A stretch of 64,000 nt of DNA, from positions 1-64,000 of the forward strand of contig NZ_SADV01000009.1 in NCBI RefSeq assembly GCF_006864135.1, given 5' to 3'. A program made the position numbers and the translations under genes. Below, piece by piece: positions 21,341 to 46,740 of the stretch (position 1 is its first letter; every line of letters starts with the position of its first letter). Origin of the DNA: Lysinibacillus sphaericus. GTDB taxonomy: Bacteria > Bacillota > Bacilli > Bacillales_A > Planococcaceae. The notes beneath the pieces are model-generated. The model saw only the letters and a list, made by a program, of their open reading frames with translations. It ran no database searches and was not told the origin of the DNA.

Positions 21341-21892
21341 TTAAGTTGTTTCAATTAAGCCATATTTACCGTCTTTGCGTTTGTAGACAATATTTGTGCC
21401 GTTTGATTCTGCATCTGTAAAGATATAGAAATCATGCCCTAGCATATTCATTTGTAAGACAGCTTCTTCTTGATCCATCGGTTTTAGATCAAATTGCTTT
21501 GTGCGAACAATAGAGTATTCGTCTTCCTCTGTTGATGCATCTGCTGCTGCTTGAGAAGTAGCAAAATAAAGGCCTGTACCTTCACGCTCACGGAATTTAC
21601 GGTTTACTTTTGTTTTATGCTTACGGATTTGACGTTCTAATTTATCAACGATTAAGTCAATCGCAGCATACATATCATTATGACGCTCTTCTGCACGAAG
21701 AGTTAAGTTCTTCATTGGAATTGTAACTTCCACTTTAGTTTGCTTGTCATTATAAACCTTTAAATTTACGTTAGCGTTGGCGTTAACATCTTCGTTAAAA
21801 TAACGTTCAACTTTCTCGACTTTGTTCTCAACATACTCTCGAATAGCTGGAGTTACCTCAATATTTTCACCGCGAATGTTAAAGTTTAACAT
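21341..21892 (-). CDS. hpf: Ribosome hibernation promoting factor, long form
   Basis: A 183-residue long-form HPF (YvyD type). The N-terminal S30AE domain (FNIRGENIEVTPAIREYVENK to about residue 105) binds in the ribosomal decoding centre. A linker with acidic residues follows, and the C-terminal domain (IVRTKQFDLKPMDQEEAVLQM) dimerises and links two ribosomes into 100S particles. The ATG at 21892 has AAAGGAGG eight bases upstream and gives the family length; the frame extends 15 codons further without support. In B. subtilis hpf also lies between the flagellar genes and secA and is induced in stationary phase and stress. Confidence 0.96.
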   Translation of the reverse strand: MLNFNIRGENIEVTPAIREYVENKVEKVERYFNEDVNANANVNLKVYNDKQTKVEVTIPMKNLTLRAEERHNDMYAAIDLIVDKLERQIRKHKTKVNRKFREREGTGLYFATSQAAADASTEEDEYSIVRTKQFDLKPMDQEEAVLQMNMLGHDFYIFTDAESNGTNIVYKRKDGKYGLIETT

Positions 21893-22051
21893 GTAAACTC
21901 CTCCTTTATAACTGCTATACTTTATATTTCTACACAAGTGTGCGAAATTCCTCTAAAATAATTCTTTTTTTCAAAAAAATTTTTTCCTACAATAATGTGT
22001 AGCATCTGCTGATATGGGTTGAACAAAATCCCCACTGTTGAATGTTTCACT

Positions 22052-22435
22052 TTATGAATTAATGCTATTTAGTTTTGCCTCATCAGCTTCTCTTCTTCGG
22101 CGTAGTTTCAACTCTTCGACAATCAAATCCTCAACCGATTCTTGATCATTAAAATTCACGCCATATTGTTTGCCCTTGCCAAAAGGACGGCTCCAAATTA
22201 TTTCACCATAAGCTCGTACCTCTCTAGTATCAAGAACAAAGCGTAAATCCAAAGGAGGAGGATTAACACCTAAATCCACTTCAGTAAACATCTTTAAACC
22301 TCGTGGACTAATATCAAGCAAATCAGCCATTGCCGTTTGCGCTTGATTCACCCTTCCATCCTCATATATCGCAAAAGTCATTTTAACAGGCTCATCGAAC
22401 TTAAATCGAAAGCCTTCTTGGCGCTTAAATATCAT
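22052..22435 (-). CDS. PilZ-domain protein, probable c-di-GMP effector of motility
   Basis: A 127-residue single PilZ domain. The second half of the c-di-GMP motif is clear: DISPRG matches DxSxxG. The N-terminal RxxxR motif is altered: KRQEGFRF places Gln where the second of the two usual arginines stands, which may weaken nucleotide binding. The hydrophobic beta-barrel strands (VKMTFAIYEDG, VRAYGEIIWSRP, KQYGVNFND) fit the family. PilZ proteins such as YcgR and DgrA slow the flagellar motor when c-di-GMP is high. Its place beside a duplicated fliS fragment, at the left end of the flagellar locus, supports a motility role by inference. Confidence 0.85.
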   Translation of the reverse strand: MIFKRQEGFRFKFDEPVKMTFAIYEDGRVNQAQTAMADLLDISPRGLKMFTEVDLGVNPPPLDLRFVLDTREVRAYGEIIWSRPFGKGKQYGVNFNDQESVEDLIVEELKLRRRREADEAKLNSINS

Positions 22436-22647
22436 ATACCCACCCCAATACTATTCGAAACATCTATTTAGCTTGATTATGACACGATGCATGTTTTACA
22501 TCTAGAGGGAATAAGTAACATATTTTACCGGATAAAGACCTATTTTATGACTAGTTAAATGTTTCCCTTTTGTATGATATAAAATGCCTTGTCTCGTATT
22601 TTTTGCAAAGAAAAGAGACCATCTTGAATTGATGGCCTCTATGTTGT

Positions 22648-22812
22648 CTAAATTTGTCCAGTGTTTCCCTGACCGAATTGTTGCTGTCGATTGATGCGAA
22701 TAACTTCCTTCCATGTATCACGGAATTCCGTCACTAATCCTTCAACTTCTTCAATTATAGCGATCTCATTTTTAATGTTTGCTTCAACTAGACGACGATT
22801 CATATATTCATA
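22648..22812 (-). pseudogene. fliS 3'-terminal fragment (duplicate)
   Basis: Fifty-four codons plus stop, nearly identical in sequence to the 3' end of the intact fliS at 30376-30786. The translated ends are the same (AIIEEVEGLVTEF to RQQQFGQGNTGQI) with a few changes just before (NIKNEI versus NIQSDV). The identity extends about 15 bases past the stop codon (22631-22647). The frame is still open, but the first half of fliS is missing; at about 22812 it passes directly into IS3 transposase sequence. Confidence 0.9.
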
Positions 22813-23310
22813 TTGTGTTAGCTTATTTCTATTGGCCAGCCTTCACGCCTAAATCACTGCGGATTTCATTAATCGGCATGATTTCTTTTATCTCCTTAAC
22901 TAGCTGTACTTGAATTTTTTGGGACTACTTTCTTCTTCAACACTGCTTACTTTTATAAACCTTCAATTTGCTGCTTTAAATAACGATTCTCCAGTTTGTA
23001 ACTTAGCAAAACTTTCTCCTCCTTTGTCATAGGTAATAGTTTCCTACAGGCTGTTTAAGGCGATGTAATTCGCCATTCTTGTACCATCTCATCCATATTT
23101 TCAGCTGAAAATAATTACGAATAATCGATTCTTGTAAAACTTGTTTTGTAGGAATTACCCGCTAATCTCAGTTCAATTGCTTTCATTTTTACTGCTAAAG
23201 TGTGACTCTCTTCCCCATAGAAAAAACACCTTCACGTTGATTTGATAGGGTACATAACCATTTTTCAACGAAAGGTGTTTTTATTTGTCTCATTTTTGTA
23301 GGGCAGTTCA
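22813..23310 (-). mobile_element. IS3-family insertion sequence remnant
   Basis: Read on the minus strand from 23310: a typical IS3 left end TGAACTGCCCTACAAAAATG, then orfA fragments in different frames (HTLAVKMKAIELRLAG; WMRWYKNGELHRLKQPVG; EEKVLLSYKLENRYLKQQIE) and the start of orfB (VQLVKEIKEIMPINEIRSDL, the HTH_21 module). Frameshifts and stops separate the fragments. The orfB fragment ends in NRNKLTQYE and runs into the fliS fragment at the shared codons for YEYM. The rest of orfB and the right end are gone. Confidence 0.85.
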
Positions 23311-23355
23311 ATAACAAGTTTTAGAACCTTTTATCTTACTCCGAAAATAGAGTTA

Positions 23356-24048
23356 TTATGAAATTGACTTGATAATTTTTAAATAGTCTTTTTGATTGTC
23401 CATCTCATATAAAGTATTTTGTTTTAATTGAAAAATAGTGATATTTAAAGTTTCAATTAAATCCAAAGGTATGTTATCCCAGTATAAGGAAGTTTTTTTA
23501 AGATTTTGGGATTGCAAGTAATTTGAAAAGTTTTGTTTTATTATTTTACAGTCTTGCATTTCCCAAAAGGAAACCCCTGATAAAGATGGGAGTTGTTCGT
23601 CAGTGATTTTTATATCTATTACTTTTTGATTGTTGTCTAATATTGGACACCATTCATTTTCTTGATCGATTCGAATAATTGTAAAATATGTACTTTGTAT
23701 AGGTTTAAGGTTTAAAAAAATATTTTCAAGAAAGACCGTATCTGCATCGATGATAAATGAATCCCCAAAATAAGGTAGGGCTAATTTGAAGCTATAAATA
23801 CTATTATATTCTTTATACATTTCATTGAAGATTAATTTTACTCCTGGAAATTTTTTTGTCAGATATTCAAATTGATTAGCTAAATGTCCAGTAACAATGT
23901 AAATCTCATTGATTTTTGCTTCAATTAAAAATTGAATAGTTCTTTCTAAGTTAGGTACTTTATTTATTGGCAAAAGTGCTTTATGTTTTGTTTTTGTCCA
24001 TTCTTCGAAACGAGATCCGAGTCCCGCTGCAAGTATAATTGCGTTCAT
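23356..24048 (-). CDS. licC: CTP:phosphocholine cytidylyltransferase, LicC-like
   Basis: A 230-residue sugar-nucleotidyltransferase-fold enzyme that closely resembles pneumococcal LicC, which makes CDP-choline from CTP and phosphocholine. Signature: ILAAGLGSRFEEWTKTKHKALLPI at the N-terminus with catalytic Arg and Lys; YNSIYSF (LicC YNNFYSL), IDADTVF (metal-binding Asp), STYFTIIRIDQENEW, LSGVSFWE and LYWDNIP all line up with LicC segments from memory. It is the last gene of the minus-strand lic operon and overlaps licB by four bases. Base composition is more AT-rich than the flanking housekeeping genes, consistent with transfer. Choline specificity is inferred from these motifs. Confidence 0.87.
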   Translation of the reverse strand: MNAIILAAGLGSRFEEWTKTKHKALLPINKVPNLERTIQFLIEAKINEIYIVTGHLANQFEYLTKKFPGVKLIFNEMYKEYNSIYSFKLALPYFGDSFIIDADTVFLENIFLNLKPIQSTYFTIIRIDQENEWCPILDNNQKVIDIKITDEQLPSLSGVSFWEMQDCKIIKQNFSNYLQSQNLKKTSLYWDNIPLDLIETLNITIFQLKQNTLYEMDNQKDYLKIIKSIS

Positions 24049-25010
24049 AGTTTTACACCTCTTTTGAAAGATATAATTGTAAAAAATTCTTTTGGATTAT
24101 TTGTTGTCAAGATAGATCCTGTAATAATAAGCAAGGCTAATAAAAATTCTTTTACTCCTGCTTCAAATCCTAGTAATAGACCGAATAAAACAGCCCACGC
24201 AGAGTAACTAATATTTAATCCCATAGCTTTAATAGGACCAACGCGATTAATCGATGTGTAGTAAAATAAATATGAAGCAGTGCCCGCTAATGCAGTTAAT
24301 GCAAATAAAATAATTGTAAAGTCTTGTAATACTAATTTTACTAAAGAAATACCCCCAATAATCGGGACTATTAACAAGCCATATACTATTGCAGAAACTG
24401 TTTGTCTTATTTGTAAAGCAATAGAAGGCAATATGTCATTTTTCATACCATAAGCGGAGATAACAGATTCAGATCCCCATCCTAAAACACATAATAAAGC
24501 GCAAGATAATCCTAAAATTAAATTTTGCGGTTCTTCTTGTGAAGTTAACCCTAAAAAAATTGTAGCTATTATGGCAAGAGAAAGTCCTATAATGTTTTTC
24601 GTAGTCACTTTTTCTTTTAAAAATAAAAAGCTAAAAAAAGATCCTACTGCAGGATACATCGAAGATATAATAGCCGTATAGGAAGGACCAATAAAATAAA
24701 TGGACAACATAAATCCAGACATTCCTATTGGGCCCCCTAAAAGCGCAGCAATCATTACTACTTTACCATCCCTACTTTTTAATGATTGTTTGAGCTGTTG
24801 TGTTCGTTTAAAAAGTAAAGTATGAAATAACATCCATATACTCGAAAAAGTATCATGTAAAAAGGTTGAGATTAAAGGGGCTACAAAAAGATAATCTTCA
24901 AAAATCGAGCAAGATAGAATAATTCCTATGATTATCGTATTGACACCCCATAGAATTCCACCCAAAAGACCAATCCATTGTCCCCTTATCTCGTATTGTG
25001 TCATTTTCAA
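24045..25010 (-). CDS. licB: Choline uptake permease, LicB-like (DMT/EamA superfamily)
   Basis: A 321-residue integral membrane protein with about ten transmembrane helices in two EamA-type repeats. It resembles pneumococcal LicB: GGILWGVNT, LGGPIGMSG (LicB LAGPIGMQA), SSMYPAVGSF, LGWGSESVISAYGM (LicB IAWGSESVLSSFAM) and INRVGPIKAMGLNISYSAWAVLF (LicB INRLQPAKATGLNVSYVVWTVLF region). LicB imports choline for phosphocholine decoration of cell-wall polymers. The gene overlaps both neighbours by four bases, so the three minus-strand genes are translationally coupled. Confidence 0.87.
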   Translation of the reverse strand: MKMTQYEIRGQWIGLLGGILWGVNTIIIGIILSCSIFEDYLFVAPLISTFLHDTFSSIWMLFHTLLFKRTQQLKQSLKSRDGKVVMIAALLGGPIGMSGFMLSIYFIGPSYTAIISSMYPAVGSFFSFLFLKEKVTTKNIIGLSLAIIATIFLGLTSQEEPQNLILGLSCALLCVLGWGSESVISAYGMKNDILPSIALQIRQTVSAIVYGLLIVPIIGGISLVKLVLQDFTIILFALTALAGTASYLFYYTSINRVGPIKAMGLNISYSAWAVLFGLLLGFEAGVKEFLLALLIITGSILTTNNPKEFFTIISFKRGVKL

Positions 25011-26602
25011 CAGTAATCCAACCCCTTTAATAGATTGGATCCCCTTTCATATCTTTTGTAACCATAATTTCCAAAAGAGTCACCATGTAACTCTTTTATA
25101 ATTGTCCAGAGGCTCCAAAGGATATCCTGTACTGATTTATAAAAATTCAACTGAAAATACTCCTCTTCTAAAAGAGGACGCTGAAAATAGAATTTTAAAA
25201 ATTCCTGTTCGTCATCTATCGTCAAGTCACTTTCTAAAATATAGGCAGCTAAATCCCAAAAAGGATTATTATATCCCGAATACTCCCAGTCAATTAAAAA
25301 AAGTTTTCCTTCGCTCGATTTGATGAAATTTTCCGGAACTAGATCATTGTGGCAAGGACATATGGAAAAGGATTTTAGTTGCTGAATTTTATCATTTAAA
25401 TATTCTATTTTTTCTTTTGATTTGGAAAAATCAGGGTATTTTTCATCTATGTAATATTTATTTGTTTTGGTTATAATAACAGATTCATAATCTTGGATTA
25501 TATTTATAAATGAAAAAGCGTTATTCATTTTAACATTAGAAGTATGTAACTTCTTTAAAATAGTAGCTATATTCTCCATATTATTTGTAATTCTAGCTGA
25601 TTGTTTCGACAAAGTCTGTGCATTTTTTACATATTTCGCAATTTTGACACCGTCATGAGCATTAAAGTAAAAAGTAGGTACATTAATTTCTAGCGTTGCT
25701 ATCGCCTTAGAGTTAATAATTTCATTATGTCGATTTACTAGACTATTTGTTCCAGCTCCAGGTATTCTAATTTGCAATTCATTTCCATCAGTTAAAGTAA
25801 TTTTATAATTTTTATTGGTCATACCTCCAGAGAATTCAATTTTCCTAATTTCTTTAGGTTGAGTTCCAATAGCTTGATGTAAATAATTTGTAATAAACTG
25901 AATTGTTTTTTCGCTGACTTTTCGATAGATATTAGAATATATACCTTCGACTGCTTTATTATATTGTTCATTAGAATTTATATTAATCCATTTTTTATTA
26001 TCTACATTAATAAAGGATATGGGCAAATTTTTACTACACTTTAACATGAAATATTTATAGTTCAACCAATTGTAAGTAGCGGATTCATTTAATACCAACA
26101 TTTCTCTGAACAATTTAATAGATATTTTAGAAATTCCAACCGCCACACTAGAAGTTGACATGAAAATTAAATGATTCTTTTCAGTACATTCAATAAAAGT
26201 TTTCTCCATAGATCCATTTAAAGCAGTATAAGTAATACAATTTGGATTAGGCGAATCTAGCAGTGTTGTAAGAATATTTTCATCAAAAAATAAATTACCT
26301 TCTATTAGAATAAAATCTTTATTTAGATATTTTTTCAGTAGACTTAATGATTTCATCGTGCCAGTGGATGTATATATGGAATTGATTATAAAATTTACAT
26401 TTTCATTTTCTAACTCTTCTATAATTAAGTTCTTTTTATAACCCACGATAATATAAACCTCATAAATATTTCTATTTTTCAACATATCAACTGTTCTTTT
26501 TATCATAGTTTGGTGGTCAACTTTTAATAAGCAAGATGGTATGCCGAAAGCATTGGAATATCCTGAAGCTAAAATAACAGCAGTATTTATATTATGTATC
26601 AT
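25007..26602 (-). CDS. licA: Fusion of nucleotidyltransferase-like domain and choline kinase (LicA-like)
   Basis: A 531-residue two-domain protein. Residues about 1-225 have the nucleotidyltransferase fold, but the signature loop reads ILASGYSNAFGIPSCLLKV: the usual Gly-x-Gly-x-Arg is missing while the Lys remains, so this half may be inactive or altered. Residues about 240-531 are a choline/aminoglycoside kinase-fold domain with GGMTNKNYKI (nucleotide loop), CHNDLVPENFI (catalytic Asp and Asn) and LIDWEYSGYNNPFWDLA (metal Asp), as in LicA. The expected reaction is ATP-dependent phosphorylation of choline. The start at 26602 (MIHNIN) has GAAAGG upstream; an ATG six codons earlier lacks a ribosome site. 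First gene of the minus-strand lic operon. Confidence 0.85.
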   Translation of the reverse strand: MIHNINTAVILASGYSNAFGIPSCLLKVDHQTMIKRTVDMLKNRNIYEVYIIVGYKKNLIIEELENENVNFIINSIYTSTGTMKSLSLLKKYLNKDFILIEGNLFFDENILTTLLDSPNPNCITYTALNGSMEKTFIECTEKNHLIFMSTSSVAVGISKISIKLFREMLVLNESATYNWLNYKYFMLKCSKNLPISFINVDNKKWININSNEQYNKAVEGIYSNIYRKVSEKTIQFITNYLHQAIGTQPKEIRKIEFSGGMTNKNYKITLTDGNELQIRIPGAGTNSLVNRHNEIINSKAIATLEINVPTFYFNAHDGVKIAKYVKNAQTLSKQSARITNNMENIATILKKLHTSNVKMNNAFSFINIIQDYESVIITKTNKYYIDEKYPDFSKSKEKIEYLNDKIQQLKSFSICPCHNDLVPENFIKSSEGKLFLIDWEYSGYNNPFWDLAAYILESDLTIDDEQEFLKFYFQRPLLEEEYFQLNFYKSVQDILWSLWTIIKELHGDSFGNYGYKRYERGSNLLKGLDYC

Positions 26603-26716
26603 TTCTTTGAAACCTTTCATTCAATATCAAAACTTGGTAAAATGTGTTTATGTATTATAAAGATTATACTATATAAAAACTTTGAATACATGAGTTTATA
26701 GTAGGAGGAAAAAGTT

Positions 26717-28738
26717 TTGTCAAGTAAAAATATAATTGAGATTGTAAAAAATTTGCACAATCGAATTGAAGATAGTTTAAGGAAAGAAGAAAGAGCAGAA
26801 GTAAATAATGCTTTAGATGAGTTATCAAAAGTTGCAAAAACTGAGACTTATTACATCGTTAGCACAACATTATTATTCGAATCTGGGAGCATTGAAGAAG
26901 CTGCTTTGAAAGTCAAAGAAGGATTACAGCAATTTTCATATTCCTATTCACTGCATTTTAATGCTGCTTTAATTCATTTCACTTTACAAAAATACGATAA
27001 TAGCTTTTATCATTTTGGAAGATGTTTAAGATTATCAGAGTATAAAGAAGAGATCGAAGCTGTACGAAATAATCTCAATGAAATGGTATATACATTAAAA
27101 AAACAACAAATTTATTCATCAGAACAATTACAAAAGTACCTAAATAAAGTTGACCAACTTTCTAAAGAAATTGATGAACGGGTCTATCCTTTAAATAAAT
27201 TTGGAGAAAGCATAATTCGTAAGGTTCAAAATCGTGGTACTGAAAATGAAAATATGACAAATTTATACAAATCATTATTTACAGAAAACATTGATATTAA
27301 TAGTAGGTATGTTACAAAAACGGAATATTTTCAAGGACATGAAGCAAAACATTATCAATATGTTTTTAATAAGAAAACAACCTTACCTTTTTCATTTTTA
27401 GAAAAAGATACTGAATTAACAATTAAAATAAATAATACTACATACGATTTTACTAATTCTCTTTTAAAGTTTAATCAATATAACTACTTGACATTTGATC
27501 CAGGAGAAATTGAAATAACTGCTAATAAACCTATATTTATTGGTAATCCGATTGCATTGAATGATGAGCCAAAAAAATATAGATTAGTAGCTCATGTTTT
27601 TATCGATGGTTTATCTGGTAAGTACTTAGAAGAAAATGATAGAGAATTATTGATTCCAAATATTTTAAATACTTTTAATGGTAAATACGAAAATACAAAT
27701 TGCTATGCTTCTGCTGATTGGACTTTTCCAAGTAACGCAGGGCTAGTTACTGCAATGGATACTATTGCACATGGCCAATACCACTCAACATTTGGACATG
27801 ATTTTTCAGAGAAGCAAGAATCACTAATTGAAAAGATTCGTAAATCAGGATATTTTACCGCTTCCTTTACTGGTGATTGGCGCGGCACACCACCCCACGG
27901 CTATGGAAAAAGTTTTGATAGAATTGTATTTAAAAACTCCATGGGTGGTTTTGGTGCAGGAGAAATCATGGAAGAGGTTATCGATCATTTAGAAACATTC
28001 AAAGATAAAAATAACTATATTTGGTTAGTTATACCTGATTTACATGATGTCGCAGATGAAATCTTTTTATCTATTAATAGTCAAGTAAATACTAATGTAC
28101 TAAATCGATTATTTTCTAAAAAGGGAGATACCTCCGTACTTACAGATTATGAAGAAAATAAAATTCTCCGTTATGGAGAAGAGTTGAAAAGAATCGATTT
28201 ACATTTATCAGTTCTTTTCAATTATATCAAACATAATTATGATGAAGATGACGTTCTTCTAATTATTCACTCTGATCATGGGCAAGGATATTTTGAGCGA
28301 GAACCAAAGCATTTCCTAAACTATGGGAGAACAAAAGTACCATTTATGTTGTTAGGAGGGGGAATGCAAGGAACTAGTGATAAATTAATGAGCAATCTTG
28401 ATATCTACCCTACAATATTGGATTTATTAAATATCGAATATGATAAAGAAAAATTGCATGGTAAAACATTAGAGGATTTCGGTGGAAAACAACGTAAAGA
28501 AGTCATGACAGAATCTTATCATCCGAATCAAACTTATAAAGCTGTAATTTATACGAGGGATTTTCAATTTTATTTTGAAACAGAGGATAGTGTTGATAAT
28601 TATGGAAGAGTCGATTTTGAACACTTTAAGACAGATTTAATTAAATTAAATGATAATTTAAATGATACTAATGTAGAAGAAATAATAGACTACTATACAA
28701 ATTGGATTTTAGAGAAGAGAGTAATTCTTCAGAAATAG
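26717..28738 (+). CDS. Alkaline-phosphatase-superfamily enzyme with helical repeats, possible phosphocholine transferase or esterase
   Basis: A 673-residue protein without signal peptide or transmembrane segment. Residues about 1-140 look like TPR helices (for example EEAALKVKEGLQQFSYSYSL), then a helical linker. From about 285 comes a sulfatase/alkaline-phosphatase fold: metal Asp297 in FIDGLSG, WTFPSNAGL with Thr336 where sulfatases carry the formylglycine cysteine (C/S-x-P-S), IPDLHD (Asp441, His443 or Asp444), and HSDHGQG (Asp520, His521). A Thr nucleophile points to phosphoester chemistry, as in phosphoethanolamine or glycerol-phosphate transferases, rather than sulfate hydrolysis. It is divergent from the lic operon with only 114 bases between the starts; TTG start at 26717 with AGGAGG upstream. 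A role in moving or removing phosphocholine in the cytoplasm is inference. Confidence 0.8.
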   Translation: MSSKNIIEIVKNLHNRIEDSLRKEERAEVNNALDELSKVAKTETYYIVSTTLLFESGSIEEAALKVKEGLQQFSYSYSLHFNAALIHFTLQKYDNSFYHFGRCLRLSEYKEEIEAVRNNLNEMVYTLKKQQIYSSEQLQKYLNKVDQLSKEIDERVYPLNKFGESIIRKVQNRGTENENMTNLYKSLFTENIDINSRYVTKTEYFQGHEAKHYQYVFNKKTTLPFSFLEKDTELTIKINNTTYDFTNSLLKFNQYNYLTFDPGEIEITANKPIFIGNPIALNDEPKKYRLVAHVFIDGLSGKYLEENDRELLIPNILNTFNGKYENTNCYASADWTFPSNAGLVTAMDTIAHGQYHSTFGHDFSEKQESLIEKIRKSGYFTASFTGDWRGTPPHGYGKSFDRIVFKNSMGGFGAGEIMEEVIDHLETFKDKNNYIWLVIPDLHDVADEIFLSINSQVNTNVLNRLFSKKGDTSVLTDYEENKILRYGEELKRIDLHLSVLFNYIKHNYDEDDVLLIIHSDHGQGYFEREPKHFLNYGRTKVPFMLLGGGMQGTSDKLMSNLDIYPTILDLLNIEYDKEKLHGKTLEDFGGKQRKEVMTESYHPNQTYKAVIYTRDFQFYFETEDSVDNYGRVDFEHFKTDLIKLNDNLNDTNVEEIIDYYTNWILEKRVILQK

Positions 28739-28918
28739 AAAATAGCATAAATTTCAATAGAATAAATCCGGAAGCTTAAAATTTTTATCATGCGAAATAA
28801 CATAATTGATTAATATTACTAATCATAATCCTTCTATCAAAAAATAGGAATTCGCTATATCTCATTGGCATATACTAGTATTCATCTCTTTAAATAAAAG
28901 TTCTAAGTTTAATGTTTG
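28739..28918. other. Intergenic spacer left of the ISL3-type element
   Basis: About 180 AT-rich bases between the phosphatase-fold gene and the insertion sequence; no strong terminator or gene is seen. Confidence 0.4.
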
Positions 28919-30267
28919 GGTACCCTAATCTTTCAGCACGTTAGCCCAAATGAACTCCGATTTCTTTATAATTTAAATTTAATAAGATTTTTGCTCGAAA
29001 GTGATTGAAGCGTCGAAAGCCATATGCATTCCGTTTCATCACTTTTGTTTTATTATTAATGCCTTCCAAGAAGCCGTTGAAATAACCAAAACTAAAGCTA
29101 TTTAAGATTTCTACTTGCCAGTTTTTCAATGTTTGAATTGCCTTTAAGAAAGCTGGTAATTTTGTCTCTTCTACCTTACGGTAAAAAGCTAGTAATCGTT
29201 TCTTCACTTCTACGACATCATTCTTTGTCTTTGCCCAATCAAACCATTCACAATAGGCTTCCTTTAATTCATGAGCTACTTTAATGCTTCAGACATTTCT
29301 GTATAGCGCTGTAAGTACCACTGTTGTTTCGGTGATAATTTAGATGCACGTTTATAAAATACATGACGCATACGTTTACATTTTGTGCGATTGTATTTGT
29401 CCCATTCTTTTTGTACTTGACGGCGCACTTCATCCATTGCCCAATAGATATAACGGCTAAAATGAAAGCGGTCTGCCACAATAACAGGTCGCCCTAGCGA
29501 TTGACGAACAGCTGCTTTAAAACTTGGATTCATATCCATAACCACTATCTCAACATCTGCTCCATACTGACTTAAGTAATTTTTTATTGTTTCTTTTTTA
29601 CGATTCGGTAAAATATCAATCGGCTCGTGCGTCTCCGCATTCGCAATTATTAGCTGATACGTACCTGCATCTGTATCGCCTTTATACTCATCAATCGCAA
29701 TCACTTTTGGTAAACGTACACCCTCTACTAATTGTTTATTCGCTACCTTTTTAAAACGGCGAATGACCGTCGTGGTTGATGTACCCAGTACTTCTACAGC
29801 TTCTTTAAATGTTTTGGCTTTAATAGCACGTATACTCACCACATGATTCTATTCTTTTGAGTAGTGTTGATATTTATCTATGAAGGGGGATTTTTCAGAA
29901 AAACGCTTTCCACAATCACAAGCATAACGACGACGTTTATAGAAAAGAATAGTTAGACGTTCAAACCATTTTAAATGATTGATCTTTTGTATACGGTAAT
30001 CATGAACCTTCGATGTTTGTTTTTTACAAACTGGACATTGATGGGTACATTTAGGCAATTGTACATACAATGCGATTCGTTCGCCTACTTCTTCTACTTT
30101 TGTAATCTCTACATCTTTTAATCCTGGGATATTCATGTTAAAATTCATTTGCACAGTTCACCTTTCTATTACTTGTTTCTAGACAATTCAAGTATATATA
30201 AATCAGTGAATCTGTGCTTTTTTTATGCGTGTAATTGTGTGAATACCCCAACAAATATTATAGAACC
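28919..30267 (-). mobile_element. ISL3-family insertion sequence, inactivated
   Basis: The element is about 1.35 kb with a single broken transposase (28941-30154). Possible terminal repeats are degenerate: GGTACCCTAATCTTT at the left end (28919) and the complement GGTTCTATAATATTT at the right (30253-30267), 11 of 15 matching. I see no convincing 8-bp target duplication, so the exact limits are uncertain. It stands at the right edge of the lic island, next to the intact fliS. Confidence 0.7.
28941..30154 (-). pseudogene. ISL3-family transposase, broken by a nonsense codon and a frameshift
   Basis: Three consecutive pieces of one transposase. The N-terminal part (30154-29849) has the zinc motif CPVCKKQTSK and CDCGKRF. 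An in-frame TAG follows (KE-stop-NHVV). The central part carries DDE-type catalytic segments (VIAIDEYKG, VVMDMNPSFKAAV, VADRFHFSR). Near 29277 one base is missing, so the frame shifts from EALK to the continuation VAHELKEAYCEWF read in another frame. The C-terminal part (MKRNAYGFRRFNHFRAKILL) is typical of ISL3 ends. No functional transposase is expected. Confidence 0.88.
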
Positions 30268-30304
30268 TAATTTAAAACCTTGGCTATATTTCGCCATACA
30301 AAAA

Positions 30305-30344
30305 CACCCCAAAAGTTAGATTTATTACTCTAACTTTTGGGGTG
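30305..30344 (-). terminator. Strong hairpin downstream of fliS
   Basis: A perfect 16-bp stem (CACCCCAAAAGTTAGA with its complement) and an 8-base loop, followed on the minus strand by GTTTTTG. It can terminate the flaG-fliD-fliT-fliS transcript. The arm resembles ends of some IS3-group elements, so it may derive from an insertion-sequence end. Confidence 0.8.
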
Positions 30345-30375
30345 CAGCACCTTAATCGATGGCCTCTTTTATTGT

Positions 30376-30786
30376 CTAAATTTGTCCAGTGTTTCCCTGA
30401 CCGAATTGCTGCTGTCGATTGATGCGAATAACTTCCTTCCATGTATCACGGAATTCCGTCACTAATCCCTCAACTTCTTCAATAATAGCGACATCACTTT
30501 GAATATTTGCCTCGACTAAACGACGATTCATATATTCATAGAGAGCAAGCATATTTTTTGATATTTCGATGTCCATATTTAATGTCACCATAAGCTCACT
30601 AATAATCGCTTGTGCTTTTATAAGATTCGTATTTTTTTCCTGGACATTTTTTTCTTGAATCGCATGTTTTGCTTTATGTAGGAACTTTAAACAACCATTA
30701 TAAAGCATTAACGTCAGCTCGCCAGGAGAAGCAGTTGTAACACTATTTTGTTTGTATGCATTTTGTGCTGTTAAATTTGCTGCCAA
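30376..30786 (-). CDS. fliS: Flagellar export chaperone FliS (flagellin chaperone)
   Basis: A 136-residue FliS. The family pattern is clear: AYKQNSVTTASPGELTLMLYNGCLKFL, the helix pairs around NLIKAQAIISELMVTLNMD and the conserved LYEYMNRRLVEANI. It binds the C-terminal disordered end of flagellin in the cytoplasm to prevent premature assembly and guides it to FlhA. In B. subtilis it also antagonises FliW through flagellin. The last 55 codons are duplicated at 22648. The gene follows fliT and is the last gene of the flaG-fliD-fliT-fliS set. Confidence 0.95.
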   Translation of the reverse strand: MAANLTAQNAYKQNSVTTASPGELTLMLYNGCLKFLHKAKHAIQEKNVQEKNTNLIKAQAIISELMVTLNMDIEISKNMLALYEYMNRRLVEANIQSDVAIIEEVEGLVTEFRDTWKEVIRINRQQQFGQGNTGQI

Positions 30787-30856
30787 TAAAGGACAACTCC
30801 TTTGAAATGTTACTTTTCTACTAGTTTAAACCATTTTATGAAGAAAAGCTAATAAC

Positions 30857-31003
30857 TCAAATACGCCTCTGCGGTATTGTTGCTGTCGCTTCGCTTTCGC
30901 ACAGATAAACAATGCGTCTGGATTTTGAATTGTGTTACAATTTAAAATCCATGATATCCGCCGGGGCTTTATCTTTCATTAGCCGGCGGCGTCCGCCACG
31001 CTA
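30857..31003 (+). repeat. Mosaic intergenic element R4
   Basis: It contains TCAAATACGCCTCTGCGGTA, the module GTTGCTGTCGCTTCGCTTTC followed by GCACAGATAAACAATGCG, TGGATTTTGAATTGTG, and the block TGATATCCGCCGGGGCTTTA. It lies between fliS and fliT within the operon, so transcripts of fliS would pass through it. Confidence 0.72.
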
Positions 31004-31018
31004 AATAGAGATATAATG

Positions 31019-31378
31019 TTAATTCTTTTTGTCATAATACATCCCATCCATTACACGAACATTCGAGTAGGGATTGAAGTATTGCTGTTCACTTTTTTTC
31101 GTTTTTTGTAGGTTTGCCATATCCTGCTTTACAGCGTTCATGACAGCAACCAATCGTTCTTTTATACCGTTATCTAATTCAAGTAACGTACCGTGTATGC
31201 GATTTTGTTCATCGAAATGAAATCCTTCCTGAATCAAAGCTTCAATAATCGTTCCACGTTTGTCCAACATGCTATTGATGTTGTCAATGTATTCATCACG
31301 CTCTTCACCATTTGGGCTGTCTCCCAATAGCTTAAATAAATTAGCTGATACCTGTAATAGTTGATCTATTAATTGCAT
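31019..31378 (-). CDS. fliT: FliT-like flagellar chaperone
   Basis: A 119-residue, mostly helical protein with a central IDNINSMLDKRGTIIEALIQEG segment typical of FliT-like proteins. FliT is the export chaperone of the filament cap FliD. The gene lies directly between fliD and fliS, supporting the assignment; in B. subtilis the order is fliD-fliS-fliT. Sequence conservation in this family is low, so the call rests mainly on position and size. Confidence 0.82.
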   Translation of the reverse strand: MQLIDQLLQVSANLFKLLGDSPNGEERDEYIDNINSMLDKRGTIIEALIQEGFHFDEQNRIHGTLLELDNGIKERLVAVMNAVKQDMANLQKTKKSEQQYFNPYSNVRVMDGMYYDKKN

Positions 31379-31424
31379 AATGTTCTCCTACTTTGCTAAT
31401 TAGAAACAAGCCAAAACCTTAACC

Positions 31425-33722
31425 TTATGAGAACAAACTTGATTGCTTGTTTGCTTTATTGATTGCTTGCTCCATAGCTGTAAATTGTTTCCAATAACGA
31501 GCTTCGACATCTCTTAGTTTAGCTTGTAATTTCGTCATACGCGTATCTGATTCGTTAATTGCCCTACCCAAACTAAATGTATTGTTAACAGCTCCATCTC
31601 TTCCTGCTTGTTTCTCAATTTGGGTTGTCATTTTTTTCATTTCATCGCGTAAACGCCATGCAATTCCACGACTATCCTCTGTTGCAGTGACGCTACCAGT
31701 TTGAGAGAACATTTTAAACACTTGGTCTGGGTCTTTTTCTAATGCAGCATCTAGTTTTCCTTCATTAATAACAAGCTTACCATTATTTTTCATATCTTTT
31801 GAAGTAGTAATCCCAATTTCAGCTAATGAATCCATGAATTTATCACCAAGGCCTGCAACACTACCCATAAATGTCTCGCGCATTTTTGTTATACCATCTC
31901 GAATAATTGAATCACTACGCAATAAACCACTCTTCGCTTTTTCATCCCAAAGCTTTTGCTCATTTTCACTCATATCTTTACGTTGCTCAGCTGTTAGTGG
32001 TGCATAATCACGATATTTACTTTCTTTTAGCTGTTTATTAAACTCATCAATCATTTCGTTATATTTTTCAACAAACTCCGTGATTTGTTCCTTCGCTGCC
32101 TTTGTATCAGAAGTAGCTTGCATTGTGACAGGGGCTGCTGTCGTACCACCTGTTGGAGTATTGTTCTTTACTTCTTCAGCATTAGCATAAGCTTGTTCCG
32201 CATCTTTTTCACGTTGCAAGCCAGCTTCATAGTTGCTTTTTACACTATCATAACTCGCTTTTTCTTTTTCATAAGTAACTTGCTTTGTCGCAATATCCTT
32301 AAATTCAGTTAGTCTAGTTGAATCCTGCGAAAGGAACTGCAATTGTTCTACATCTGTATCTTTCAGCATTGTTTTTAAAGAGCCATCAGCAAGATTATTT
32401 ATAGCAGTTTTAATTTCTTCTGTTGTCTTACCGTTCATGCTATTTAAAAACGTAATTGCCTCATCATTTGTAAGTAAATTTTTATTAGTTCCCTTATAAA
32501 GTCTTTCATCTGCTTCATTATTTGCCTGGTTACGGAAATTCTCAAGGCTATCTGCATTATCTTTCATTCTATTTAAATCTGCATCACTATAAACGCTGAA
32601 CTGGCTCATCGCTCTTAATGTATCAAAATCATTATTTTTAATAGTATCAATATCATCATCACTTAACTTCGCAATACGATTTTTATCAGCAAAATCTTTA
32701 TAAACCGATTGCTCCTGCTCAGTTAAAGTTGAAGCAAATTTACCATTGTATGCAGTATCAAAATCTGTCTTAAATGCGCTAGGAGGTAATGTAGCATTTT
32801 TCAATTCATCTATCGTAGAAAAAGATGTCCCAAAGTAACGATTCGCACCATCAATGTACTTTTGAGTAAGCCCATTTGGTCCTACCATAGCATCTTGTGC
32901 ATTTTTAAGCTCTAATTTTGCAGCCTCATATTGCTTTAAAGCAACGTCACCAGCATTAAAAGTCTGTTTTAATGTCATTTCATAACCTGAAATTGTAAAA
33001 GTATTAGATGAACGCTCTGTTTGAATACCATTCACTTCAAACATAGCATTTTTACCATTGCTAGCTAATTTACCATCAGTTGATGCGAAGCCTAATTTGT
33101 TAAATACTTCCAATCCACCGGTAACAATAATTTCACCTTGTCCACCTTTTTCACTACCTGTATTTTTAGCAGTTAGGGACAATTTTCCACCTTCAAATAA
33201 AGCAGTAACACCTGCACTAGTACCGTTAATTGTCTTTACTAAATCATTAATTGTCATATCGTTAGTAAAATTAACTTTTGTTGCCTCTGTTGTTAATCTA
33301 CCATCCTTACCAATTGATTGGATAGAAATAGAATTTACATTCAAGTTTAGCTCACTTAACTTTGAGTCACCGGTATATTCTGTTTGATTACCTACAGCTT
33401 GAGCTGCAGAAGCTAATTGTGATACACCACCAATTGTAATATTACCAGTTGCTCCTGAAGTAGCCTTTACGGATACTAAATTTTCATTTGATGACGTTGC
33501 AGTTTTTTGATTCATTTTTCCTGAAAGAATCATTTTATCTAATAAGAAAGTATCGAATGTTTTTAACTTTGCATTAACATTACGATATGCATCACGTTTC
33601 CATTCTAATAATTGTTTTTGTTGAAACGTTTTATTCAAAGGCATACGTTCTGCCTTCATTAATTTCTCTACAAGTGAATCAATATCCATACCAGACGCTA
33701 AACCGCCAATTCTTGTTACCAT
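31425..33722 (-). CDS. fliD: Flagellar filament cap protein FliD, unusually large
   Basis: FliD caps the growing filament and helps flagellin fold into place. The N-terminal FliD domain is intact (RIGGLASGMDIDSLVEKLMKAERMPLNK), as is the C-terminal region (LTKLQAKLR-type coiled coil, ending YWKQFTAMEQAINKANKQSSLF). At 765 residues it is well above the roughly 500 of B. subtilis FliD. The extra sequence is a helical, charged insertion at about residues 265-540 (for example ADERLYKGTNKNLLTNDEAI). Such surface domains vary between species and may contact host or environment. No frameshift is seen. Confidence 0.95.
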   Translation of the reverse strand: MVTRIGGLASGMDIDSLVEKLMKAERMPLNKTFQQKQLLEWKRDAYRNVNAKLKTFDTFLLDKMILSGKMNQKTATSSNENLVSVKATSGATGNITIGGVSQLASAAQAVGNQTEYTGDSKLSELNLNVNSISIQSIGKDGRLTTEATKVNFTNDMTINDLVKTINGTSAGVTALFEGGKLSLTAKNTGSEKGGQGEIIVTGGLEVFNKLGFASTDGKLASNGKNAMFEVNGIQTERSSNTFTISGYEMTLKQTFNAGDVALKQYEAAKLELKNAQDAMVGPNGLTQKYIDGANRYFGTSFSTIDELKNATLPPSAFKTDFDTAYNGKFASTLTEQEQSVYKDFADKNRIAKLSDDDIDTIKNNDFDTLRAMSQFSVYSDADLNRMKDNADSLENFRNQANNEADERLYKGTNKNLLTNDEAITFLNSMNGKTTEEIKTAINNLADGSLKTMLKDTDVEQLQFLSQDSTRLTEFKDIATKQVTYEKEKASYDSVKSNYEAGLQREKDAEQAYANAEEVKNNTPTGGTTAAPVTMQATSDTKAAKEQITEFVEKYNEMIDEFNKQLKESKYRDYAPLTAEQRKDMSENEQKLWDEKAKSGLLRSDSIIRDGITKMRETFMGSVAGLGDKFMDSLAEIGITTSKDMKNNGKLVINEGKLDAALEKDPDQVFKMFSQTGSVTATEDSRGIAWRLRDEMKKMTTQIEKQAGRDGAVNNTFSLGRAINESDTRMTKLQAKLRDVEARYWKQFTAMEQAINKANKQSSLFS

Positions 33723-33747
33723 ACTCTTTTCCTCCTCATTAATGTTT

Positions 33748-34137
33748 TTATATTTTCTTGTCTACAATCATACCAAGCATTTTCTGCATTTCATAAAATG
33801 CGTCCAATAGCTTTTTGGGAGGTATTTCTTTTACTACCTCCTCGGTATTTTGGTCAACCACCGTCACATAATATCGTTCTAAGCCTTCATGATATACAAA
33901 CTTCGCTGCGCTGTGTGTAACTTCTAACATTTGGTTCATTGTATTTACAGCTTGTTGAACTTTAGCTTTAGTTTCCTCAGTATTTTCAAGTAATTGGACT
34001 TGTTCAACTTTAGATGTAGGTATTTTTATAGTAACTTCACTTCCTTGATTCATTCCTCCCTCGACTGCTGGCTTATCTTTAGTACCAGTTTGCATTATCA
34101 GCGTTGCATCCATATTTGTATTTTCTGATATACGCAT
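33748..34137 (-). CDS. flaG: FlaG (YvyC) family protein
   Basis: A 129-residue FlaG-type protein. The C-terminal half has the characteristic beta pattern (YYVTVVDQNTEEVVKEIPP) and the helix LLDAFYEMQKMLGMIVD. FlaG proteins occur next to fliD and influence filament length; the mechanism is not settled. It is the first gene of the flaG-fliD-fliT-fliS unit, behind a possible sigma-D promoter at 34183-34208, and fliD follows after 25 bases. Confidence 0.92.
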   Translation of the reverse strand: MRISENTNMDATLIMQTGTKDKPAVEGGMNQGSEVTIKIPTSKVEQVQLLENTEETKAKVQQAVNTMNQMLEVTHSAAKFVYHEGLERYYVTVVDQNTEEVVKEIPPKKLLDAFYEMQKMLGMIVDKKI

Positions 34138-34458: not shown

Positions 34459-35682
34459 TTAATTACTAATCATCACAAACATATGTCCCATTGTAGTATA
34501 ACCTGAGTCCTCCATACCCTTACGAACGCCTTGTAAATAAGAAGAATTATGTTCAATTGCTTTTGCAAGTTGTTGTATACATTCAATTACCATGTCTTGA
34601 GTTAATTTTTGCTGCTTTGAGGCCATACCAATCATATGTAATTTAATGAGTGTAAAATGAATAACAAGCATCATATAACTCTCGAACATTGTATTATAAT
34701 CATATGGAAATAGGTTTTTAAATATATAATTGACAACATAATTTTCAAGCATATAGCCTTGCTTTTTCATAAATGGTTCATACAATTCTAGATAGCTCTG
34801 TTGGTATTTAGCAATTGATTGATCCATGTCCTGCACTTCTTTATTGTCATTTTCGTCTAATAATAATCCATCTAATAATTGATGTAGAATCGCTAAATAC
34901 TTTTCCGATGACACTCCACCATCAGACATGCGATAACGTATTAAGTCTCTAGCCAAACTTAACTGAAAATTTAAGTTCCCTTCAATATTTTTTAATGATT
35001 CAATGAATTCTTCGTTATCTAAGCGGTTTAAATAATCTTCCATAATTGTAGGTAGCTGTTGCTCTAAGTCACTTAATTTTAATCGCTCAATTTTCTGAAT
35101 AAATAGACCTAAAATTATTAATCGGATTTCAATAGGTTGTTTACGATTTTGCATCAGCTGAATAGTAAAAACTCTCAAATCCCAAAATAGTGGATGCTTC
35201 TCCAAATTAAGTTCATTACTCATTAATCCACGAGTATCTTTGGGCTCCTCTGTCTCAATAAAACCTAAACCTTCTTCACGCAAGAGAGCAACTCTTGCTG
35301 CCTCAGGGCAAGATAAAGTTAAACTTTTTTCAACAAAAGAACCTACTTTAGTAAATTGTCTTGGATAAGTAGCACAAGTATTACATAAAAACTGTTCTCC
35401 CAATTCTTTATGAATACCACATAGCCCATCCTCTAACATCATATGACACTTCTTATTTTCATCTAACACTATTTTTGCGTAACTCGAATCGTCCTGTTGA
35501 CTTCGGTTACGCTTCACATAACGTTGTAGCTTCTCTCTTATTTCTGGATGTTTGACTTTACGATAATTTTGATAAGTCCTTTTATCTACCGTAATATTCC
35601 AGCCAGCACAACAAGTATCTTCACAAGCACCACCAATACAACTAAACTCTTCAAAATAATCTGGAATTAATATCGGCCTCAT
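34459..35682 (-). CDS. fliB: Flagellin lysine N-methylase FliB
   Basis: A 407-residue FliB. The cysteine-rich N-terminus is diagnostic: CIGGACEDTCCAGW (Cys15, 20, 24, 25) and later CHMMLEDGLCGIHKELG, CNTCATYPRQF and SCPEAARV, consistent with an iron-sulfur cluster. FliB transfers methyl groups to lysines of flagellin, first described in Salmonella. The C-terminal half is helical. It is the last gene of the modification operon, 45 bases after legF, so methylation and glycosylation enzymes are probably made together. The target lysines in the flagellin at 45804 cannot be assigned. Confidence 0.9.
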   Translation of the reverse strand: MRPILIPDYFEEFSCIGGACEDTCCAGWNITVDKRTYQNYRKVKHPEIREKLQRYVKRNRSQQDDSSYAKIVLDENKKCHMMLEDGLCGIHKELGEQFLCNTCATYPRQFTKVGSFVEKSLTLSCPEAARVALLREEGLGFIETEEPKDTRGLMSNELNLEKHPLFWDLRVFTIQLMQNRKQPIEIRLIILGLFIQKIERLKLSDLEQQLPTIMEDYLNRLDNEEFIESLKNIEGNLNFQLSLARDLIRYRMSDGGVSSEKYLAILHQLLDGLLLDENDNKEVQDMDQSIAKYQQSYLELYEPFMKKQGYMLENYVVNYIFKNLFPYDYNTMFESYMMLVIHFTLIKLHMIGMASKQQKLTQDMVIECIQQLAKAIEHNSSYLQGVRKGMEDSGYTTMGHMFVMISN

Positions 35683-46713: not shown

Positions 46714-46740
46714 TATATCGTAATTAGTTGGAAATGTTTA
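46714..46740 (-). promoter_or_regulatory. Sigma-D promoter of hag
   Basis: On the minus strand TAAA (46737-46740), 15 bases, then ACGATATA (46714-46721), close to TAAA-N15-GCCGATAT. The predicted transcript would begin near 46707 and include the CsrA hairpin. Confidence 0.75.

Follow-up and report, generated by a model that had tools for sequence, protein, structure and literature searches.

The choline block beside fliS

The window analysed here is a 64,000-nucleotide stretch of Lysinibacillus sphaericus DNA (contig NZ_SADV01000009.1, positions 1 to 64,000), and our subject is a four-gene block within it, in which three lic genes for choline uptake and activation stand divergent to a gene for a soluble sulfatase-fold protein. 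The latter, given no role in the initial annotation, is a candidate phosphocholine transferase and stands out as the cluster's most unusual member. Genomes compared carry G-numbers; G000 is the window's own genome and G025 a second Lysinibacillus genome. The block is made up as follows:

23356-24048, minus strand: LicC, CTP:phosphocholine cytidylyltransferase, 230 amino acids (1jyk, E 1e-44, residues 2-226)
24045-25010, minus strand: LicB, choline permease (EamA/DMT), 321 amino acids (7b0k, E 8.5e-39; PF00892, E 7.7e-17)
25007-26620, minus strand: degenerate nucleotidyltransferase domain fused to a LicA choline kinase, 537 amino acids (4r77, E 1.4e-52; PF01633, E 1.8e-26)
26621-26716, no strand: divergent intergenic region of 96 bases, with no sigma-D-like match
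26717-28738, plus strand: soluble tetratricopeptide repeat (TPR) and sulfatase-fold protein, 673 amino acids, candidate phosphocholine transferase by PF00884 (E 2.4e-16), residues and neighbourhoods

Each neighbouring pair of the three lic open reading frames (ORFs) overlaps by 4 bases, and the solved homologues listed bear out the earlier assignment of LicC, LicB and a LicA-type fusion, as PF00884 does the description of the divergent gene as alkaline-phosphatase-fold. The gap between the two divergent genes had been put at 114 bases; this holds for a start at the second methionine of the fusion, the position at which the called G025 homologue starts, but not for the longest ORF, which leaves 96 bases. 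Structure 7b0k was the sole solved-structure match of LicB at E<=0.1, and LicB was 91% identical to a relative in Lysinibacillus sp. FJAT-14745. D105 and D192 of pneumococcal LicC are Glu in PntC of T. denticola (PMC6697681, in excerpt); since the window LicC has Asp at both positions separating LicC from PntC (position mapping by the authors' alignment), its preferred substrate should be phosphocholine rather than aminoethylphosphonate.

The fusion comprises a nucleotidyltransferase domain at about residues 13-234 and a choline kinase domain at about residues 251-528. The signature Arg and Lys were gone from the N-terminal domain in all four aligned fusions that have a separate LicC alongside (G000, G025, G205 and G052), and were kept in the G752 fusion, whose fetched locus held no separate LicC; the nucleotidyltransferase domain of the window fusion is probably inactive. 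A winged-helix domain precedes the degenerate nucleotidyltransferase domain in the G205 fusion.

The block lies between hpf-PilZ (21341-22435) and fliS-fliT-fliD-flaG (30376-34137), the names hpf, fliS, fliT, fliD and flaG being assigned from sequence, without a profile match. Beyond flaG follow a FliB flagellin lysine methylase (34459-35682, E 2.1e-102), a NeuB-type nonulosonic-acid operon, two MptE-like (Maf-type) proteins and flagellin; fliS, fliT, fliD, flaG, the methylase, the NeuB operon and flagellin are on the minus strand, adjoining the module. These ORFs and the FliB and NeuB matches agree with the initial annotation, which had set the cluster beside fliS and near a flagellin-modification operon. 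Three further features bear on how the block arrived:

23312-28933, no strand: block common to the window and G025, aligned as a single stretch of 5,626 columns, 93.9% identical
22627-22828, minus strand: incomplete copy of the 3' end of fliS, beside PilZ (89.7% over 203 columns to 30354-30556, the intact fliS)
28941-30154, minus strand: ISL3-type transposase in pieces, right of the block (PF01610, E 6.9e-39 on 29276-29842, and neighbouring short ORFs)

Flagellar DNA to the right of the block was 70-75% identical to G025 where it could be aligned, and the partial fliS to the left 76%; the G+C content of 23356-28738 was 0.289, compared with 0.36 in the window as a whole. PilZ and fliS adjoin each other in G017 and G021. 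The single 93.9% piece, the partial fliS and the adjacency of PilZ and fliS elsewhere together indicate that the four genes entered together at fliS, and that they make up a single acquired module. Within the genus, LicB was matched in 2 of the 32 genomes searched, both of which carry the sulfatase-fold gene; this gene was full-length in 4 of the 32. G003, which gave no LicB match, retains a remnant of 34 residues (L016:10508-10609) with 82% identity to the sulfatase-fold protein. No relative of this protein was found among plasmid records at E<=1e-10, and Rfam gave no match in 21900-31000 at the gathering threshold. With a sigma-D consensus, the only exact match in the window lay by flagellin (46715-46740), and matches with at most one mismatch numbered 18 against 10.6 expected; sigma-D control of the module was rejected, as no match fell at the block.

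The sulfatase-fold family, its partners and LicD

The comparison covers relatives of the sulfatase-fold protein in 13 genomes, with up to 20 kb read around each locus. The first search matched 8 of 61 genomes, from which five full-length proteins were kept and a fragment in G003 and short sulfatase-domain matches in G048 and G038 dropped. A second matched 146 of 398 genomes at E<=0.001; the four with E<1e-50 across the sulfatase domain were kept (G000, G640, G752 and G618), the next best among the matches listed being 4.5e-13. Further searches at E<=1e-25 found at least 2 of 391 and at least 5 of 398 genomes (at most 3 and 2 candidates scored per genome, respectively), and 2 of 26.

When the members were aligned (16 rows, 13 genomes), D297, T336, H443, D520 and H521 were invariant in every row, whilst D441 varied once. 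T336 occupies the predicted nucleophile position; at this place formylglycine sulfatases carry Cys or Ser (C/S-x-P-x-R), and Thr stood there in all 16 rows. By hydropathy, none of the ten members tested has a membrane segment, the highest 19-residue value of the window protein being 1.15 versus 2.24 for LicB. The TPR was called weakly in the relative from G017, and clearly with the family profile.

Each of the 13 loci held exactly one kind of partner: a choline cassette (four), a phosphonate cassette (three) or one family of S-adenosylmethionine methyltransferases (six: G017, G021, G036, G332, G244 and G937). The choline-type loci, with choline kinase and LicC, were those of G000 and G025, both with LicB, of G640, whose choline transporter is a BCCT protein (E 8.4e-126), and of G752, with an NCS1-like permease and choline kinase and LicC activities fused; three choline transporter types, LicB, BCCT and NCS1-like, accompany the sulfatase-fold protein. 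The phosphonate-type loci (G618, G288 and G343) held phosphoenolpyruvate (PEP) mutase and phosphonopyruvate decarboxylase over curated cut-offs, with an aminoethylphosphonate (AEP) aminotransferase also in G618 and G343. Other methyltransferase-like genes were noted in G640, in G332 and G244 (weak match) and in G343 (by eye). NeuB was present in 11 of the 13 loci and flagellar markers in 8, placing the gene in the flagellar or nonulosonic-acid loci expected of flagellin modification; it lay inside the flagellar/nonulosonic operon itself in G017, G021, G036, G332, G244 and G343. As G000 and G025, and likewise G332 and G244, are near-copies, there are fewer than 13 independent cases.

In the tree of the family, the window protein grouped with the methyltransferase-type proteins of G017 and G021, and those of G640 and G752 branched far off. 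Starred branches forced at least three changes for each partner label, and all three labels jointly needed 5 changes against a shuffle average of 7.8; the labels are thus partly clustered. This placement and the label changes indicate repeated exchange of donor cassettes around one enzyme.

The initial annotation had seen no LicD at the locus, and a PF04991 search extended this to the whole of G000, with no match; none was found in G025 either. LicD was present in 9 of 20 genomes searched with PF04991, and in all seven picked for a strong LicB (G205, G052, G326, G157, G198, G388 and G423); the licABC operon was read in the first six of these, G423 being known by LicB alone, and licD adjoins the lic operon in G205 and G052. 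The phosphonate-type genomes G288, G343 and G618 gave no LicD match, and five of the seven genomes in which the sulfatase-fold protein accompanies a cytidine monophosphate (CMP) cassette have none in the genome. None of the seven LicD-bearing LicB genomes was among the matches in 5 of 398 genomes (E<=1e-25, at most two candidates per genome; not checked singly). The LicB search itself found matches in 87 of 398 genomes (E<=0.001), with 17 below 1e-30; neighbourhoods were read for the window and 15 others of the 17, with G423 left out. At L048-L050 and L052-L057, LicB-like permeases were observed with neither LicA nor LicC nearby, three alone and six by apparent microcompartment genes (judged by eye). 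Gene identities, residue conservation, co-transfer and genomic context are each supported by comparison.

A candidate headgroup transferase and the rival explanations

Partnering with CMP cassettes, the predicted Thr nucleophile and the absence of LicD from five of seven genomes are best read as signs of a headgroup transferase, and the soluble TPR plan, like that of FlmG (below), suggests that the acceptor is flagellin or its glycan, in the cytosol. Our preferred reading, which we regard as almost evenly balanced with a slight lean towards doubt, is that the module makes cytidine diphosphate (CDP)-choline and that the sulfatase-fold protein replaces LicD, transferring phosphocholine to flagellin or its nonulosonic-acid glycan. 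Judging from close homology to solved enzymes, LicB would import choline, the LicA domain would phosphorylate it and LicC would make CDP-choline. We infer the reaction, its donor and acceptor and every step from CDP-choline onward: Thr336 would attack the phosphocholine phosphorus of CDP-choline, with CMP leaving; the phosphocholine, now linked to Thr, would then be handed to a hydroxyl group of flagellin or of its nonulosonic-acid glycan ahead of export, with the acceptor bound by the TPR part; and the same family would serve CMP-phosphonates in other genomes. We tentatively propose, more broadly, a cytosolic sulfatase-fold family that may place CMP-activated headgroups (CDP-choline, CMP-aminoethylphosphonate, CMP-hydroxyethylphosphonate) onto flagellin or nonulosonic-acid glycan prior to export, independently of LicD and with exchangeable donor cassettes. 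The phosphocholine modification of flagella raised by the initial annotation keeps its flagellar link, strengthened by relatives in nonulosonic or flagellar loci of other genera; the modification itself stays a prediction.

Several observations weigh against the transfer of headgroups to flagellin by this family. Thr nucleophiles occur in hydrolases too; Pfam gave no TPR match for the window protein at E<=0.1, and no sigma-D-like site lies in 26620-26717, at the block. In the stretch read, the six methyltransferase-type loci lacked a CMP-headgroup cassette, the G752 and G618 loci showed neither NeuB nor flagellar markers, and G640 and G752 carry LicD (2 and 3 matches) together with the sulfatase-fold protein, which argues against simple replacement of LicD there. 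Lastly, a control set of 20 PEP-mutase loci over the cut-off, from 18 of 200 genomes drawn from the class, contained no full family member, indicating that the family is not a general feature of phosphonate loci.

The family model matched two proteins in the control loci, a 618-residue sulfatase-fold protein (G191) and a helix-turn-helix/TPR protein (G182), neither a full member. The G074 and G191 control loci held flagellar markers and a diverged sulfatase-fold protein without a TPR match (PF00884, E 2.3e-11 and 1e-13, respectively; profile-profile probability 97.1); in the two flagellar loci this second, soluble type (L119:4194-6074 and L120:7446-9302) stands by PEP mutase-nucleotidyltransferase fusions. 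A LicD-like neighbour (E 8.1e-10) was present in the G191 locus. APS-kinase-like genes were observed in three loci with sulfatase-fold proteins (L106:11030-11551, L119:9345-9890 and, by eye, L120:9312-9845).

The sulfatase-fold protein could instead be a phosphodiesterase or other hydrolase, releasing or editing headgroups for example, with an unrecognised enzyme transferring phosphocholine. The predicted site also fits nucleotide phosphodiesterases, PF01663 matches occur among the relatives, and the best single-sequence structure matches were choline sulfatases (E about 1.4e-5); a choline-specific hydrolase, however, fits ill with the phosphonate and methyltransferase partners, and neither G000 nor G025 yielded a LicD to perform the transfer; we consider this alternative unlikely. 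Somewhat improbable too, in our judgement, is that the protein is indeed a phosphocholine transferase acting on a wall or other surface glycan, for which the flagellar position was a mere entry site. Known Lic-1 targets are glycans (PMC10434233, in excerpt), entry at fliS may be chance, the block has no sigma-D-like site, and no flagellar marker lay within the 20 kb read in the G640, G752, G618, G288 and G937 loci; a wall acceptor nevertheless fits less well with relatives of which 8 of 13 have flagellar genes and 11 of 13 NeuB, some inside the flagellar/nonulosonic operon, and with a protein predicted to be cytosolic and TPR-bearing.

CDP-choline is also the donor for a phosphatidylcholine route, through a CDP-alcohol phosphatidyltransferase, and PF01066 proteins were present in all 32 genus genomes searched. 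The block, however, holds no PF01066-type gene, and G000 has two such proteins, like 27 of the 32; three were counted in G025, G003, G007, G020 and G022, and in four of these five LicB was not matched. As G000 has no extra PF01066 protein, this route was rejected, and we regard it as very improbable.

Comparison with known systems

If the preferred transferase reading is true, there is a second way of attaching phosphocholine from CDP-choline, choline and phosphonate decoration are united under one cytosolic enzyme family, and the enzyme that places phosphonate on flagellin becomes testable. No report of phosphocholine on flagellin, or of Lic genes combined with a sulfatase-fold transferase, was found among the open-licence literature matches listed. 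Transferases for O-methyl phosphoramidate in Campylobacter were weighed as a possible known relative; the excerpts of PMC3907429 do not tell their fold.

The window shares with Lic-1 (licABCD) of Streptococcus pneumoniae and others LicA, LicB and LicC homologues in one operon, but its genome has no LicD match, its LicA bears an extra degenerate nucleotidyltransferase domain and a sulfatase-fold gene travels along. PptA and EptA/EptC are likewise of the alkaline-phosphatase superfamily, with a Thr nucleophile, an acidic residue and an Asp-His pair (Glu240, Thr280, Asp452 and His453 in EptA; PMC10525099, in excerpt), a likeness seen here by sequence only, and PptA and EptC modify surface proteins (excerpts of PMC10434233 and PMC10525099). 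They differ in being membrane enzymes with phospholipid donors, whereas the window protein is encoded with CDP-choline genes and shows by hydropathy no N-terminal membrane domain of the PptA/EptA type. According to the excerpts of PMC10434233, no species combining Lic-1 with PptA is known; the module would supply such a combination, of Lic-1 with a phosphocholine transferase of the alkaline-phosphatase superfamily.

Phosphonate tailoring through PntC resembles the present case in CMP activation by LicC-like enzymes, and three sulfatase-fold relatives sit with such pathways; it differs in that PMC6697681 names LicD-like phosphotransferases and glycosyltransferases near the clusters, with no sulfatase mentioned in its excerpts. 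In C. difficile a flagellin glycan with a phosphonate headgroup is already documented, the type A flagellin glycan carrying 2-aminoethylphosphonate, and the excerpts of PMC8861647 name no enzyme that adds it; the sulfatase-fold family is a candidate type for such unnamed transferases of flagellar phosphonate and phosphocholine. Similar in overall plan is FlmG, the flagellin O-glycosyltransferase of Caulobacter, a cytoplasmic protein with a C-terminal catalytic domain and an N-terminal TPR-containing domain that binds flagellin (PMC7591256, in excerpt); FlmG differs in bearing a GT-B glycosyltransferase domain instead of the sulfatase fold.

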